The notes beneath the pieces were generated by a model. The model saw only the letters and a list, made by a program, of their open reading frames with translations. It ran no database searches and was not told where the DNA came from. Shown here in pieces: positions 12,284 to 19,037 of a stretch of 52,906 nucleotides of DNA. Position 1 is the first letter of the stretch. Each line of letters opens with the position of its first letter. This stretch comes from Pseudorhodobacter sp. E13 (GTDB lineage Bacteria; Pseudomonadota; Alphaproteobacteria; Rhodobacterales; Rhodobacteraceae). The stretch lies in assembly GCF_003991405.1 (NCBI RefSeq), contig NZ_RPEN01000144.1, positions 1 to 52,906 of the forward strand, given 5' to 3'. The translations under genes were made by a program, and so were the position numbers.

Positions 12284-12499
12284 ATGTGCCCCGATAGGTT
12301 TCCCCAAGCTATAGACCACGACAGGGCATGGGCCAAGCCTTTGACTGCCCCGGCGCGGCCCTGATTATGCACCGCAAACACTGACCTCCCGTTGAGAATT
12401 CGGCGGCGGTTGACTTTCAAACCGCGGGACGCCATTTAGACGCCGACATAAACCCGCAACCGGGCGCATCGTGGGCGCCAAACCGAGGAGGTGGCCCAG

Positions 12500-14446
12500 A
12501 TGGCCCAGATTTCCCTGACCTTTCCCGATGGCAATATTCGTCACTATGACGCAGGCGTGACCCCTGCCGAAGTGGCGGCCAGCATTGCTGTCAGCCTTGC
12601 CAAAAAGGCCATCAGCGCCACCGTGAACGGCGCGCATTTCGATCTGCAATGGCCGATCACGGCGGATGCCACCATTTCCTTGAACACGCTGGCCGATGAT
12701 GCCGCCGCACTGGAGTTGATCCGGCACGATATGGCGCATGTGATGGCGCGCGCGGTGCAAGAGATCTGGCCCGATGTGAAGGTGACGATTGGTCCGGTCA
12801 TCAAGGATGGCTGGTATTACGATTTCGACCGGGCGGAACCCTTTACCCCCGAAGACCTTGGCGCGATTGAAGCGAAGATGAAACAGATCATCAACGCGCG
12901 CGACCCCGTCCGCACCGAAGTCTGGGACCGCGCCCGCGCCATTGCGCATTATGAGGCCAAGGGCGAACCCTATAAGGTGGAGTTGATCGAAAGCATCCCG
13001 GGTGCCGAAGACCTGCGGATGTATTGGCACGGCCATTGGCAAGACCTGTGCCGGGGCCCGCATTTGCAAAACACCGGGCAGCTTCCGGCGGATGCGTTCA
13101 AACTGATGTCGGTTGCCGGGGCCTATTGGCGCGGCGACAGCAACCGCGCCATGCTTCAACGGATTTACGGCGTGGCGTTCAAGAACCGCGAAGACCTGAA
13201 GGCCCATCTGACCCTGCTGGAAGAAGCCGCAAAGCGCGACCACCGCAAGCTGGGCCGCGAGATGAACCTGTTTCACATGCAGGAAGAGGCACCGGGCCAG
13301 ATTTTCTGGCACCCGAACGGCTGGACGATTTACACGCAGCTGCAAGACTACATGCGCCGCAAGCAGCGCGCCGATGGCTATGTAGAGGTGAACACGCCGC
13401 AGGTGGTGAACCGCAAGCTGTGGGAAGCCTCGGGCCATTGGGAGAGTTATCAGGAAAACATGTTCATCGTGGAAGTGGATGAAGACCACGCCCGCGAAAA
13501 GACCATTAATGCGCTGAAACCGATGAACTGCCCCTGCCATGTGCAGATTTTCAACGTGGGCCTGAAATCCTATCGCGACCTTCCGCTGCGGATGGCAGAG
13601 TTTGGGTCTTGCAACCGCTATGAACCCTCTGGCGCGCTGCATGGCATCATGCGCGTGCGCGGCTTTACACAAGACGACGGGCATATCTTTTGCCGCGAAG
13701 AACAGATCGAATCTGAATCGAAGAAATTCATCGAATTCCTGAGCCGTATCTACGCCGATCTCGGCTTTGACAAATGGCGCATCAAACTGTCCACCCGCCC
13801 TGAAAAGCGGGTTGGAACGGATGCAAGTTGGGACATGATGGAAGAGGCGCTGGCCAATGCTTGCAAGGCGGCGGGTCACGACTTTGAATTGTTCCCGGGC
13901 GAAGGTGCATTCTATGCGCCCAAGTTGGAATTCGTGCTGACCGATGCGATTGGCCGTGACTGGCAATGCGGCACCTTGCAACTGGACCCGAACATTCCAG
14001 CCCGTCTTGGCGCAAGTTATATCGGCGAGGATGGCGCAAAGCACACGCCTTATATGCTGCACCGCGCCTGCCTTGGGTCGTTCGAACGCTTTATCGGCAT
14101 TCTGATCGAAAGCCATGCGGGCAAGCTGCCGTTCTGGATTGCGCCGCGTCAGGTTGTGGTGGCGGCAATCGTCTCGGACGCAGATGATTACGCGATGGAG
14201 GTTTGCGCCGCGCTGAATGCCGCCGGGGTGCGGGCCGAAGTTGATCTGCGCAATGAAAAGATCAACTACAAGATTCGCGAACATTCGGTCGGTAAAGTGC
14301 CGGTTATTCTGGCCGTTGGCATGCGGGAGGTAGAGGAAAAAACCGTTTCCGTCCGCCGCTTGGGTGAAACAAAAACCGAAACCTTGGCGCTGGACGACGT
14401 GATCACGGATTTGGGCAAAGAAGCCAAGGCGCCGGACCTGCGCTAA
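12500..14446 (+). CDS. thrS: Threonyl-tRNA synthetase
   Basis: A 648-residue class II synthetase of full length. In order it has a TGS domain (1-60), the editing domain with [11 protein letters not shown] (about 77), a catalytic core with zinc ligands in [10 protein letters not shown], motif 2 [17 protein letters not shown] and [10 protein letters not shown], motif 3 near [16 protein letters not shown], and a C-terminal anticodon-binding domain. It charges tRNA-Thr in the cytosol. GAGGAG is nine bases before the ATG at 12500, while an in-frame GTG at 12491 has no spacing, so 12500 was chosen. It has a strong terminator and is monocistronic. No leader attenuator was evident. Confidence 0.97.
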
Positions 14447-14469
14447 ACAAGCCATTGAAAACCATAAGA

Positions 14470-14500
14470 AAGCGCCGTTCCTGCGGCGCTTTTTTCTTTT
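14470..14500 (+). terminator. Intrinsic terminator of thrS
   Basis: AAGCGCCG (14470-14477) and CGGCGCTT (14484-14491) form an 8-bp stem with a six-base loop, followed by TTTTTCTTTT. Confidence 0.92.
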
Positions 14501-14502
14501 TA

Positions 14503-14623
14503 CAGAGCCCTGAAATTTTTCCCGTTTCATGTTACAATTTTTCACGGCCCTGTTTTACACGGCCCTGTTATTGGCCTGTTACCGCTGGCGTGCCGTAGCA
14601 ATTGGACATCGCAATAACGCGAT
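14503..14623 (+). promoter_or_regulatory. Bufferin operon upstream region with tandem repeats and palindrome
   Basis: CACGGCCCTGTT occurs at 14543-14554 and again at 14558-14569. A degenerate third copy (TTGGCCTGTTA) follows at 14571-14581, and a related CCCTG lies at about 14508. An inverted repeat ATCGC-AATAAC-GCGAT covers 14608-14623. The spacing of about 15 bp suggests a regulator binding side by side on the DNA. No convincing -10/-35 pair or ECF sigma site was seen, and no regulator gene is adjacent. Its role as a metal- or stress-responsive control region is inferred. Confidence 0.45.
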
Positions 14624-14652: not shown

Positions 14653-14943
14653 ATGTCGATGAATACCAAAACGATTGCTGTTGCAGGTGCTTTGGCTGCG
14701 GCTCTGGCCGCCCATGTTGCCCCGGCTTCGGCACAGGAAGCCAAGGAAAAATGCTTTGGCGTGGCGCTGGCTGGCCAGAATGATTGCGCGGCCGGCCCCG
14801 GCACCACCTGTGCAGGTTCGTCCAAGGTCGACTATCAGGGCAACGCATGGAAGCTGGTCCCGGCGGGCACCTGCACCACGATGGAACTGCCCGAAGGCCG
14901 CATGGGCAGCCTCGAAGCGCTTGACCGCGACATGGCAAGCTGA
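14653..14943 (+). CDS. bufA1: Bufferin-type RiPP precursor (DUF2282)
   Basis: A 96-residue precursor. A classic Sec signal peptide (1-27, cleavage after ASA) precedes a short core with four cysteines at 34, 45, 53 and 74. [14 protein letters not shown] is the DUF2282 hallmark, followed by [13 protein letters not shown] and [12 protein letters not shown]2282 proteins were recently shown in Caulobacter and others to be bufferins, exported peptides whose central cysteines are modified to thiooxazoles and which bind copper (established). The order with bufB, bufC and DoxX genes is exact. GGGAGAG lies well spaced before the ATG at 14653. A hairpin separates it from bufB and may keep the precursor transcript more abundant than the enzyme transcript. 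Confidence 0.93.
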
Positions 14944-14951
14944 TCACGCCT

Positions 14952-14981
14952 GCCCTCCCCTCCGCACCGGGGGGGGAGGGC
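14952..14981 (+). promoter_or_regulatory. Intercistronic hairpin between bufA1 and bufB
   Basis: GCCCTCCCC (14952-14960) pairs perfectly with GGGGAGGGC (14973-14981) around a 12-base loop, in the 59-bp gap between precursor and enzyme genes. A short AAATTT follows, not a long T-run. It may act as a partial terminator or an mRNA-processing/stability element favouring the precursor. This is inferred from position. Confidence 0.6.
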
Positions 14982-15002
14982 AAATTTCCCGGAGGAGTTC
15001 GG

Positions 15003-15851
15003 ATGTTCGACAGCGTTGCACAGGCCCTGCCCCCGCGCCCCGGCATTGGCTATAAGCCCCAGCATTTCAAGGATATTCTGGAAAATCCGGGCGCCGTTGC
15101 ATGGCTGGAAATCCATGCCGAGAATTACATGGGCGATGGCGGACGGCCCCATGCGCAACTGCGCCTTCTGGCCGAACGCTTTGCCTTTTCGGTGCATGGT
15201 GTCGGCCTGTCAATCGGCGGTGAGGCACCGCTGGATGAGGCGCATCTGTCCCGCCTGAAACATCTGTGCGACTGGCTGCAACCGGCCAGCTTTTCCGAAC
15301 ATCTGGCGTGGTCCAGCCATGACGACACCTTTCTGAACGACCTTTTGCCCCTGCCCTATACCGCAGAAACCGTGACCCGCGTGGCCGACCATATCGACCG
15401 CGTGCAAGAGGTGTTGGGGCGGCGGATGCTGCTGGAAAACCCCTCGTCTTATCTGGCCTTTGCCGGGGCCGAGATGTCGGAAACCGATTTCCTGCGCGAC
15501 GTGGCGCGGCGCACCGGTTGCGGCCTGTTGCTGGATGTGAATAACGTCTTTGTTTCTGCCACCAATCTGACCTTTGACGCCGCCGCCTATCTGGCTGATT
15601 TTCCAACCGATTTGGTGGGTGAAGTGCATCTGGGCGGCCATTTCGCGGATAGTGATGACCATGGCGCGCCGCTGCTGATCGACAGCCATAATGCGGCGGT
15701 GGTTGACCCGGTCTGGCAGCTTTATGCGGGCCTGATTGGCCGTGCCGGACCGCTGCCCACGCTGATCGAATGGGATAATGATGTGCCGGATTGGCCGGTG
15801 CTGCGCGCCGAGGCTGCGCGCGCCGCACAGATTCTGGACCCGGTCGCATGA
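15003..15851 (+). CDS. bufB: Bufferin maturation enzyme, MNIO family (DUF692)
   Basis: A 282-residue TIM-barrel protein of the multinuclear non-heme iron-dependent oxidative enzyme family (MNIO, DUF692). The opening [10 protein letters not shown] and EIHAENYMG, then [49 protein letters not shown] and DSHN blocks carry the His/Asp/Glu/Asn residues that bind the iron cluster in this family. The enzyme oxidises cysteines of the precursor into heterocycles in the cytosol before export. A GGAGGAG sequence precedes the ATG. Its stop overlaps the bufC start (ATGA), so the enzyme and its partner are co-translated. Confidence 0.95.
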
Positions 15852-16588
15852 GCCAGTCCAGCTTCACCGCCGCCTTGCTGGACCCGGAAAAACCGGTGCC
15901 AGAGGGGCTGATTGACGCCGCGGGCCAACCTGCCGGGCGGCGCTTTGCGGTCTATCGCAACAATGTGGTGAACAGCCTGACCGAGGCTTTGGAACAGGGA
16001 TTCCCGGTGCTGCAAAAGCTGCTGGGGGCCGCGTATTTCACCGCCCTTGCCGGGGTCTTTGTGCGCGCCCATCCGCCCAAATCGCGGCTGATGATGTTTT
16101 ACGGTGCGGAACTGCCTGATTTTTTGGCACAATTCCCGCCGCTGGCACATCTGCCCTATTTGCCCGATGTCGCCCGGGTGGAGCTTGCTTTGCGCGCCTC
16201 TTATCATGCCGCCGATGCCCCGCCGCTGCCCCCCGAGGTTCTGGGCGCGCTGACGCCCGACGCTTTCATGGCCGCGCGCTTTACCCTTGCGCCAGCGCTG
16301 CGGCTGATCCGGTCGGACTATCCGGTCTGGTCGATCTGGCAGGCCAACACAAAACCGGACGCCCCGGCCCCCGTGATGCGCCCCGAGGCCGCGCTGATCC
16401 TGCGGCCCGAATTTGACCCCGCCCCGCATCTGCTGCCCCTTGGCGGCGCGGATTTTATCGCCGCGCTGATGCAGGGCCAAACCATCGCCGAAGCGGTCGA
16501 TGCCGCAGGCGAAGGCTTTGACCCAAGCGCCTGTCTGGGTCTGCTGATCCACGGCGGCGCCCTTATCGGATTAAGTGAGGAACCCTGA
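15848..16588 (+). CDS. bufC: Bufferin maturation partner (DUF2063)
   Basis: A 246-residue protein. The N-terminal DUF2063 domain (about 1-95) includes [34 protein letters not shown] and the FPVLQKLLG block. The middle ([16 protein letters not shown]) and C-terminal parts are more variable. In bufferin and methanobactin-like systems this protein family is the recognition partner that presents the precursor to the MNIO enzyme (established for the family). It starts within the bufB stop and ends within the DoxX start (TGATG), so stoichiometric expression is expected. Confidence 0.92.
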
Positions 16589-17154
16589 TGAACCAATTGA
16601 TTTTGCGTTATAATCGCGTTGCAGCATGGCTGGACGCGGCAAGCCCCGCTTTGCTGCCACTGGCCGCGCGCTTTGTCTTTGCGGCTGTGTTGCTGATCTA
16701 TTTCTGGGCCTCGGCGCTGACCAAACTCGGCCCCGGCCCCTTGGGGTTTCTGATGCCCACCGATGGGGCCTATATCCAGATTTTCCCCAAGACGACCGAG
16801 GCGTTCGGCTATGATTTCGGCCAGTTCGGGCTGTTTCACTGGGCCGTTGTCACGGCGGGAACCTTGGCGGAATTCCTGCTGCCTTTCCTGATCCTTGTGG
16901 GCCTGTTCACCCGCTTGGCGGCGCTGGGGATGATCGGGTTTATCGCGGTGCAATCCTGGGTCGATGTGCAGGGGCATGGTGTTGGTGGCGACCATCTGGG
17001 CGGCCTGTTCGACCGCGCCTCGGATGCGCTGATCTGGGATCAACGCGTGCTGTGGGTCTTTGTGCTGGTGGTTCTGGTCCTGAAAGGGGGCGGCGCGCTG
17101 TCGCTTGACCGGATTTTGGCCGGTCGCATCGGCGCCGCTTCACAAGGTTCTTGA
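16588..17154 (+). CDS. DoxX family membrane protein
   Basis: A 188-residue integral membrane protein with about four hydrophobic segments (LPLAARFVFAAVLLIYFW; WAVVTAGTLAEFLLPFLIL; LGMIGFIAVQSW; VLWVFVLVVLVLKG). The AEFLLPFLILVGLFTRLAA block is typical of DoxX/DoxD. DoxX proteins are often fourth genes of DUF2282/DUF692/DUF2063 operons. Their biochemical role there is not firmly known; a redox or membrane-linked function is usually suggested. The 1-bp stop/start overlap with bufC shows it belongs to the operon. No clear terminator follows. Confidence 0.88.
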   Translation: MNQLILRYNRVAAWLDAASPALLPLAARFVFAAVLLIYFWASALTKLGPGPLGFLMPTDGAYIQIFPKTTEAFGYDFGQFGLFHWAVVTAGTLAEFLLPFLILVGLFTRLAALGMIGFIAVQSWVDVQGHGVGGDHLGGLFDRASDALIWDQRVLWVFVLVVLVLKGGGALSLDRILAGRIGAASQGS

Positions 17155-17301: not shown

Positions 17302-17508
17302 ATGCCTACCGGCACCGTAAAATGGTTTAACAGCACCAAGGGCTATGGGTTCATCGCGCCGGATGACGGCGGGAAGGACGTGTTTGTCCATATTTCAGCA
17401 GTAGAACGCGCGGGATTGACCGGGCTGAGCGACAACCAGAAAATCGGCTATGAGATGCAATCGGGCCGTGATGGCAAGCAATCGGCCGGCGATTTGCGGC
17501 TGCTCTGA
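17302..17508 (+). CDS. Cold-shock domain protein
   Basis: A 68-residue CspA-like single OB-fold protein. RNP1 is KGYGFI (residues 14-19) and RNP2 is VFVHIS (about 27-32). The start TGTVKWFNSTKGYG is canonical. It binds single-stranded RNA or DNA as an RNA chaperone in the cytosol. AAGGAG precedes the ATG by seven bases. The leader is about 147 bp and may form a regulatory 5' UTR, as in many csp genes, but no specific thermosensor was resolved. It is convergent with the ArsC-like gene. Confidence 0.95.
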   Translation: MPTGTVKWFNSTKGYGFIAPDDGGKDVFVHISAVERAGLTGLSDNQKIGYEMQSGRDGKQSAGDLRLL

Positions 17509-18440: not shown

Positions 18441-19037
18441 CTAGGCCTGCGGGCGGCCCACGGCGCGCAAGGCCATCTCGGCGTAAAGGGTTTGCACATC
18501 GCCCCGGCTAAGCCGTCCGCCTTCGCGATACCAGTTTGTCACCCCGGTCAGCATGGCAATCAGCGCCAGTGTCGCCATCTTGGGGTCGGGCAGCGTAAAG
18601 GCCCCCGATTGCACCCCGGACAGCAGAATCGCCTGCAACCGGTCTTCATATTGGCGGCGCAGGGATTCGATGGTGGCAAAATTCTCGGGCGAGAGGTTGC
18701 GCAATTCCATATAGGCGATGAACACCGCCTCGGGCCGATCAAGGTGATAGCCGATGTGAAAGCGGGCGAATTGATCCAGCGCGGCGGCGGGGCTGTCGGT
18801 TGGGGGCAGGCTGGCCAGCGCGGCCAGCAGGTTGGTCATGTGGTCCTGCATCAGATCGAACAGCAGCGCCTGTTTATCCGCCGTATAGAGGTAAAGCGCA
18901 CCCGCCTGCACGCCCACCTCAGCCGCGATCTGCCGCATGGAGACGGCGGCAAAGCCGTGGCGGGCAAACAGCCGCAGTGCCGCGTCGCGAATACGCGGGC
19001 CAGTGATTTCGGAATGAGAGCCGGTTTTGCGCGCCAT
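18441..19037 (-). CDS. TetR family transcriptional regulator
   Basis: A 198-residue TetR-type repressor. The N-terminal HTH (about 12-60) contains IRDAALRLFARHGFAAVSMRQIAAEVGVQAGALYLYTADKQAL, here split only for description, with the recognition helix around GVQAGALYLY. The C-terminal ligand domain (about 70-198) is of the AcrR/TetR_C type with HIGYHLDRPEAVFIAYMELR. The ligand is unknown. A palindrome (19051-19066) lies 14 bp upstream of its start, suggesting autoregulation, and the divergent small lipoprotein gene could share it. Confidence 0.9.
   Translation of the reverse strand: MARKTGSHSEITGPRIRDAALRLFARHGFAAVSMRQIAAEVGVQAGALYLYTADKQALLFDLMQDHMTNLLAALASLPPTDSPAAALDQFARFHIGYHLDRPEAVFIAYMELRNLSPENFATIESLRRQYEDRLQAILLSGVQSGAFTLPDPKMATLALIAMLTGVTNWYREGGRLSRGDVQTLYAEMALRAVGRPQA

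Follow-up and report, generated by a model that had tools for sequence, protein, structure and literature searches.

A bufferin operon of Pseudorhodobacter sp. E13 and the operator-like tandem dyad and stem-loops of its control region

The window analysed in this study, a stretch of 52,906 nucleotides from Pseudorhodobacter sp. E13 (contig NZ_RPEN01000144.1), carries at positions 14653 to 17154 four closely packed genes, bufABCD, which by their family content form a complete and ordinary bufferin operon. Bufferins are a recently recognised and widespread class of copper-chelating peptides. We propose, with a probability of roughly 0.78, that this operon makes a metallophore of the bufferin 1 type by the mechanism outlined below, including transcription governed by a tandem dyad upstream of bufA. 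Judged by its genes, the core of the operon is a further instance of an already known type; the novelty lies in the control region, and it is this region, together with a side branch of DUF2282 genes that have lost cysteines, that appears worth following.

The genes and their families can be read directly from the sequence. All four genes lie on the plus strand, as do the control elements described below. bufA (14653..14943) encodes the DUF2282 bufferin precursor of 96 residues (Pfam PF10048, 92.1 bits), bufB (15003..15851) the MNIO maturase (PF05114, MbnB_TglH_ChrH, 351.2 bits), bufC (15848..16588) the DUF2063 partner protein (PF09836, 94.6 bits) and bufD (16588..17154) a membrane protein of the DoxX family (PF07681, 27.5 bits, cut-off 23.6), with an ATGA overlap between bufB and bufC and a TGATG overlap between bufC and bufD. 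A preliminary description of this DNA had read the same genes, overlaps, families and order as a bufferin operon; the profile search that it had proposed places all four proteins above the Pfam cut-offs, and family matches, gene order and overlaps all support its reading. BufB furthermore reaches 376.7 bits with NF050167 (MNIO_BufB, cut-off 310) and stays below the cut-offs of the NCBIfam models for HvfB, ApyH, MbnB and ChrH, and the scores of bufC with the HvfC model, of bufD with HvfX and of bufA with BufA2 all fall short of the cut-offs. The whole E13 genome contains one DUF2282 gene and one MNIO gene, both inside the operon. The label 'integral membrane protein', which Pfam gives to DUF2282, was set aside, because the hydrophobic part resembles a signal.

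BufB resembles the DUF692 structure 3bww (E 1.5e-36) as well as the structures of TglH and MbnB. In a script-made alignment of 81 rows, conservation reaches at least 97% at acidic residues and histidines such as H65, H100, E145, D178, H209, D227, H229, E256 and D258, which may be iron ligands. For BufC, no sequence match in the PDB was found at E 0.001. Its AlphaFold2 model has a mean predicted local distance difference test (pLDDT) score of 94.7, and a Foldseek search with it returned only three matches at E <=0.001, namely TglI, the partner protein of the TglHI complex (8hci and 8hi7), and 3dee (NGO1945). These matches extend over the full length, with template modelling (TM) scores of 0.51-0.59 by query length, as is expected of a DUF2063 partner with an RRE-like second domain. 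BufD was aligned by script over 76 rows.

The same families occur in the same order, DUF2282-DUF692-DUF2063-(DoxX), in the bufferin 1 operon of Caulobacter vibrioides/crescentus (CC3254-3257) and in CC2907-2905. Other systems are less similar. Like E13, the captophorin/oxazolin operons (HvfABC, FonABC) combine an MNIO with a DUF2063-type partner and form thiooxazoles (PMC12668002; papers given by PMC number are cited here from parts of their text), but their precursors carry EGKCG repeats instead of DUF2282, and E13 BufB scores 244.8 bits with the HvfB model, below its cut-off of 360. TglHI (3-thiaglutamate) and MbnBC (methanobactin) have the MNIO family in common with E13 and differ in their precursors and chemistry; the fold of BufC matches TglI at E 1.9e-6 but MbnC only marginally (7dz9_C, E 2.0), and BufB reaches 52.7 bits with the MbnB model, below the cut-off of 325. 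In Paracoccus marcusii, a relative, a plasmid-borne DUF692 cluster has been described as a putative bacteriocin, with copper not mentioned in the cited parts of that paper (PMC8273931). Among open-access full texts, we found no paper that pairs MNIO with Rhodobacter, and the text of PMC12452194 contains neither 'rhodobacter' nor 'promoter'.

The cysteines of BufA, at positions 34, 45, 53 and 74, are the four expected of a DUF2282 bufferin precursor, which bears out the 96-residue, four-cysteine peptide of the preliminary description. They are invariant in a hand-picked alignment of 29 rows (E13 bufA and 28 of 84 relatives' genes) and present within the DUF2282 family region in all 103 genera parsed in the survey introduced below, as well as in G017 and G085, which were read by eye. 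The N-terminus, likewise assessed by eye rather than with a predictor, has a K-containing start, a hydrophobic stretch and a signal-like end (...APASA-QE). In Buf1, the modification falls on the central cysteines, and a disulphide joins the first cysteine to the last (PMC12452194); each thiooxazole entails a loss of 4 Da, and thiooxazoles have been assigned to Caulobacter bufferin 1 (PMC12668002). By analogy, C45 and C53 of E13 BufA should carry the heterocycles and C34-C74 should form the disulphide. Two of the cysteines had earlier been placed in a hallmark motif of the peptide: the second of these, C45, stays a predicted modification target, but the first, C34, would pair with C74, and the other target, following PMC12452194, would be C53.

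The control region was examined in two samples. The first comprises 80 loci fetched by BufB similarity, the best 80 of 583 relatives and as such a biased sample; the 80 upstream regions referred to below are those of 79 relatives' loci and of E13. The second comprises 149 whole genomes of the same family, one per genus, not selected by likeness to the bufferin operon. Genomes classed as same-family are taken to be Rhodobacteraceae, as judged from the nearest named relatives, which are Pseudorhodobacter species (BufB is 87% identical to that of P. ferrugineus). The genus survey covers 103 of the 106 genera with DUF2282, the own genus included.

At 14542..14575, upstream of bufA, lies an operator-like tandem-dyad element. 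Its 34-bp consensus, TnACG-N4-CGTGa-N2-CACG-N4-(C/T)GTGA-nTGGC, was first spotted by eye and then cast into a weight matrix with a threshold of 12 bits; the element at this position is also written TCACG-N4-(C/T)GTnn-N2-CACG-N4-(C/T)GTnA-nTGGC, and both of its right half-sites read CTGTT in E13. Sixty of the 80 upstream regions, which also served as the training set of the matrix, score above the threshold, and E13 reaches 35.2 bits, whereas none of 800 first-order resamples exceeds 4.4. The dyad is also found in 68 of 95 upstream regions that an exact-substring test showed to lie outside the training set, and it precedes bufA in 74 of the 103 parsed genera. The earlier suggestion that control must come from elsewhere can now be put in definite terms: the operon carries a conserved operator-like region of its own, and the genome lacks NrsF, the partner of sigma-F discussed below. 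A search of open-access papers on these families turned up no description of the tandem dyad or of the stem-loops presented below, with subscription papers and supplements lying outside that search.

A strict form of the pattern matches in 48 of the 149 family genomes, at one place in each, and its reversed control in none. All but two of these places (46/48) sit 100-400 bp before a DUF2282 domain. In G071, the dyad occurs twice, once before bufA (21.0 bits) and once between bufA and bufB (30.4 bits; the strict-pattern place). The dyad of E13 falls outside the strict pattern; with a relaxed pattern, the operon site is the only place without mismatch in the E13 genome, and when two mismatches are allowed, the reversed control yields more matches than the pattern (11 compared with 5, both strands counted). 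Given the single strict match in each matching genome and the unique relaxed match in E13, we reject a wider dyad regulon. We consider the dyad to be the site of a putative DNA-binding protein, and, as there is usually one site per genome, this regulator should be findable by affinity capture.

Two further observations concern the same element. In G120, a genome without DUF2282, a YkuD (L,D-transpeptidase) gene is preceded, at a distance of about 66 bp, by a dyad of 23.4 bits (L096, 1496-1529), whose neighbour on the other side is an aldehyde-dehydrogenase gene; this dyad may be chance or a second target. In E13, TGTTACAAT stands directly before the dyads, at 14528-14540, and recurs in near relatives, as judged by eye; it could be the -10 box of another promoter or an additional site.

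A promoter is predicted at 14571..14602, composed of TTGGCC, which overlaps the second dyad, and TAGCAAT, a near fit to TAnnnT. A TAnnnT hexamer is present at offset 20 past the dyad in 26 of the 60 dyad loci; among the 68 further, non-training regions, 43 have it at offset 19-20. It is followed by a small stem-loop, ATCGC-AATAAC-GCGAT in E13 (14608..14623), which is conserved across loci in its pairing rather than in its letters and would form the 5' end of the predicted mRNA: it begins 12-13 nt beyond the hexamer, near the expected start of the transcript. At least four Watson-Crick pairs are possible in 46/60 loci, compared with 39% in dinucleotide shuffles, and 27 of these 46 stems begin at offsets 32-33. 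In the second set, the stem is found in 50/68 regions, compared with 38.5% in mononucleotide shuffles, and 21 of the 50 begin at these offsets.

A second, larger stem-loop, with a stem of 13 bp in E13 (14951..14982), separates bufA from bufB. A stem of at least 8 bp is present at this position in 68 of the 80 loci, a frequency that drops to 8.5% in shuffles and to 7.7% in windows taken from the bufB coding sequence; the mean folding z of the region is -2.9 (79 regions), and the genus survey finds the stem-loop in 89/103. As 78 of the 80 stems differ in sequence, it is the pairing that is kept and not the letters. At two loci with tandem precursor genes, L078 and L089, the stem follows the first bufA, and the gaps between the second bufA and bufB, of 25 and 10 nt, are stemless. 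We suggest that this stem-loop stabilises or processes the mRNA and thereby leaves more bufA than bufBCD message. The conserved RNA stem-loops thus predict an excess of precursor.

To our knowledge, the known bufferin regulators are sigma factors. In Caulobacter, sigma-F acts together with NrsF, with the promoter GTAACC-N16-CGAA (PMC3511200), whereas E13 has no NrsF gene and a tandem dyad instead: NrsF (PF06532) gives 0 matches in the E13 genome but does match in the control genome of Caulobacter vibrioides, with genes for extracytoplasmic function (ECF) sigma factors lying outside this genome-wide search. Nor is E13 among the 9/80 upstream regions that have a GTAAC-N16..18-CGAA promoter before bufA. 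Local sigma-F control of the E13 operon is rejected on these two grounds. Across the 80 upstream regions, the dyad (60) and the sigma-F-type promoter (9) never occur together, and the same is true of the genus survey, with 74 genera of the first kind, 8 of the second, 21 with neither and 0 with both. Eight open frames scanned from 7 of the 9 sigma-F-type loci, which occupy the interval from thrS to bufA on the opposite strand, match NrsF (5) or ECF-type sigma-70 regions (3), and the promoter of these relatives is the one reported for Caulobacter (PMC3511200). NrsF is present in all 8 sigma-F-type genera, and 6 of the 21 neither-type genera have it without that exact promoter. Only one of the 15 NrsF genera that were parsed has dyads (G137), and its NrsF match is below cut-off and contains two stops. 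In some genomes, NrsF and bufA are on separate contigs, so that linkage is not established for each. When the operator is called by the strict pattern, 47 of the 106 genera carry it and 17 have NrsF; the two sets share 0 genera, where 7.5 would be expected (P 1.4e-5, uncorrected for phylogeny).

In the mechanism that we propose, BufA would be produced with a Sec signal, and BufB, together with its partner BufC, would turn C45 and C53 into thiooxazoles in the cytoplasm. The modified peptide would then be exported, its signal removed and the C34-C74 disulphide closed, and the mature peptide would chelate excess copper in the periplasm, with BufD as an accessory membrane protein. For E13, we infer the production, modification, export and copper binding of the peptide by analogy, since its chemistry, its disulphide and its affinity for copper are drawn from the literature on related systems. 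Transcription would proceed without sigma-F/NrsF, from the predicted housekeeping-type promoter and with the putative DNA-binding protein at the tandem dyad. The 5' stem-loop and the one between bufA and bufB would probably leave more bufA mRNA than bufBCD mRNA, and thereby precursor in excess of enzyme. The conservation and position of these elements are observed; their roles as a protein site and as RNA structures are our interpretation.

It is also conceivable that the peptide mainly serves another stress, such as other metals or oxidants, and that copper is secondary. The sigma-F-dependent DUF2282-DUF692-DUF2063 genes of Caulobacter have been studied under chromium stress (PMC3511200), the GIG operon of Legionella responds to gold as well as copper (PMC5413113), and DoxX has been linked to other stresses (PMC12452194). 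We regard such a primary role as improbable.

Several observations weigh against the proposed mechanism. The structure model of BufA is poor (pLDDT 52.3) and unfit for judging the disulphide. In a wider draw of 385 alphaproteobacterial genomes (5 same-family and 380 non-family), the strict pattern matches in six, 2/5 of the former and 4/380 of the latter, and the four non-family matches (L125, L126, L127, L130) lie inside open reading frames, score 4.0, 19.1, 22.1 and 28.0 bits and have no bufA in sight, so that single genome-wide matches can be chance. Furthermore, 11/80 loci and 21/103 genera have neither control element, the reversed sigma-F-type pattern also matches in 1/106 regions, and the statistics on the exclusivity of the two control types take no account of phylogeny. 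The two remaining points concern the promoter and the stem-loop after bufA.

A generic sigma-70 scan selects a promoter other than ours, CTGAAA-17-TACAAT with an extended TG at 14510-14538, one of 2 promoter-like sites where 0.6 would be expected, and an mRNA started from there would include the dyads. They might then act as paired RNA instead of as a transcription-factor site, each dyad being able to pair as a hairpin, or they might belong to the sequence that a different alternative sigma factor recognises; the recurrence of TGTTACAAT before the dyads in near relatives also fits such a reading. However, the half-site letters are kept as sequence (T1 97%, G11 99%, T27 99%), and the letters that would pair at the edge of the hairpin are kept unequally, T1 at 97% and its partner A14 at 56%. 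Together with the fixed distance between the dyad and TAnnnT in both sets of regions, this makes the alternative unlikely in our view, and we continue to favour a DNA-binding protein at the dyad, with both promoters retained as candidates.

As for the stem-loop after bufA, a T run is rare: only 10/80 loci have at least five T in eight. This minority is consistent with a partial terminator in place of a 3' stabiliser of bufA mRNA, a reading that we consider somewhat doubtful, as the T-rich tail is missing in the other 70/80 loci. Since most stems lack the run, a role in stabilising or processing the mRNA is favoured. The hairpin of the puf operon is a precedent. Decay of puf mRNA is treated in PMC3997798, in whose cited parts that hairpin is not mentioned.

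The distribution of the genes reveals a side branch. Among the 149 genera, DUF2282 is found in 106 and MNIO in 105; no genus has MNIO without DUF2282, and the two sets differ only by G138. Within the own genus, DUF2282 is present in 9/9 genomes and MNIO in 8/9, the exception being G002 (100% complete). Here, a solo DUF2282 gene (L010, 1453-1725) sits between thrS and the cold-shock-protein gene csp, with a GTG start overlapping the thrS stop, and its product has kept the first and last cysteine and lost the two central ones. A similar solo gene at the same site in G007 (L011, 1444-1716; 77% identity to that of G002) has also lost the central cysteines. G007 additionally has a four-cysteine bufABC with MNIO elsewhere (L275, 3051-5021), in which bufD was not recognised and before which no tandem dyad was found (best -1.4 bits, L005); this bufABC away from the thrS site was possibly acquired separately. 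In G138 (L272/L276), DUF2282 occurs without MNIO and again without the two central cysteines, and both the replacing residues and the neighbourhood differ from those in G002. Thus, both genomes in these samples with DUF2282 but without MNIO encode a protein with only the first and last cysteine. This joint loss of the maturase and exactly the two central cysteines in two lineages lends evolutionary support to these being the modified ones. G138 retains an NrsF gene (L277, 180.2 bits) despite having no MNIO gene.

Constraint on the solo genes appears at best moderate: between the two, nonsynonymous (dN) and synonymous (dS) divergence are 0.13 and 0.45 by NG86 and 0.16 and 0.31 by YN00, over only 90 codons; for E13 bufA and L012, they are 0.10 and 0.68 (NG86). 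Genomes with DUF2282 and without MNIO have been counted before (21 of 4072), with the suggestion that an enzyme encoded elsewhere may act on precursors that have no associated MNIO gene, or that these precursors may remain unmodified; central-cysteine loss is not mentioned in the parts of that paper cited here (PMC12452194). A broader scenario, to which we give an even chance, would join these observations: in the bufferin operons of Rhodobacteraceae, a dedicated metal- or stress-responsive DNA-binding protein, with about one tandem-dyad target per genome, would have taken the place of the sigma-F/NrsF switch, or given way to it, at one and the same thrS-bufABCD site and, together with the two stem-loops, would provide a high ratio of precursor to maturase, while a side branch would keep a demodified DUF2282 protein without central cysteines after loss of the maturase.

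In E13, thrS (12491-14446) directly precedes the operon, and a cold-shock-protein gene (17302-17508) directly follows it. A rho-independent terminator of thrS, with stem-loop and T run (14469..14495, plus strand), marks the upstream boundary of the unit. No conserved regulator gene beside the operon was recognised by eye among representatives of the 45 neighbour clusters listed, and a TetR-like gene (18441-19037) was dropped as a candidate regulator, since its cluster (cluster 41) joins it with no more than 3 loci. The 80 BufB-similar loci include thrS in 75 cases, bufA in 79, bufC in 80, bufD in 76 and the csp gene in 69. The pairing of bufA and bufB is not due to chance, as 79/80 loci have both; the exception, L064, begins at bufB. 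Part of the missing genes is explained by contig ends, while L062, L066, L075 and L091 have no csp although their stretch is full-length. Likewise, DoxX is missing at three contig ends and in L014, where the contig continues, so that DoxX is not strictly required. Two tandem copies of bufA are present in 5/80 loci (L017, L018, L020, L078 and L089).

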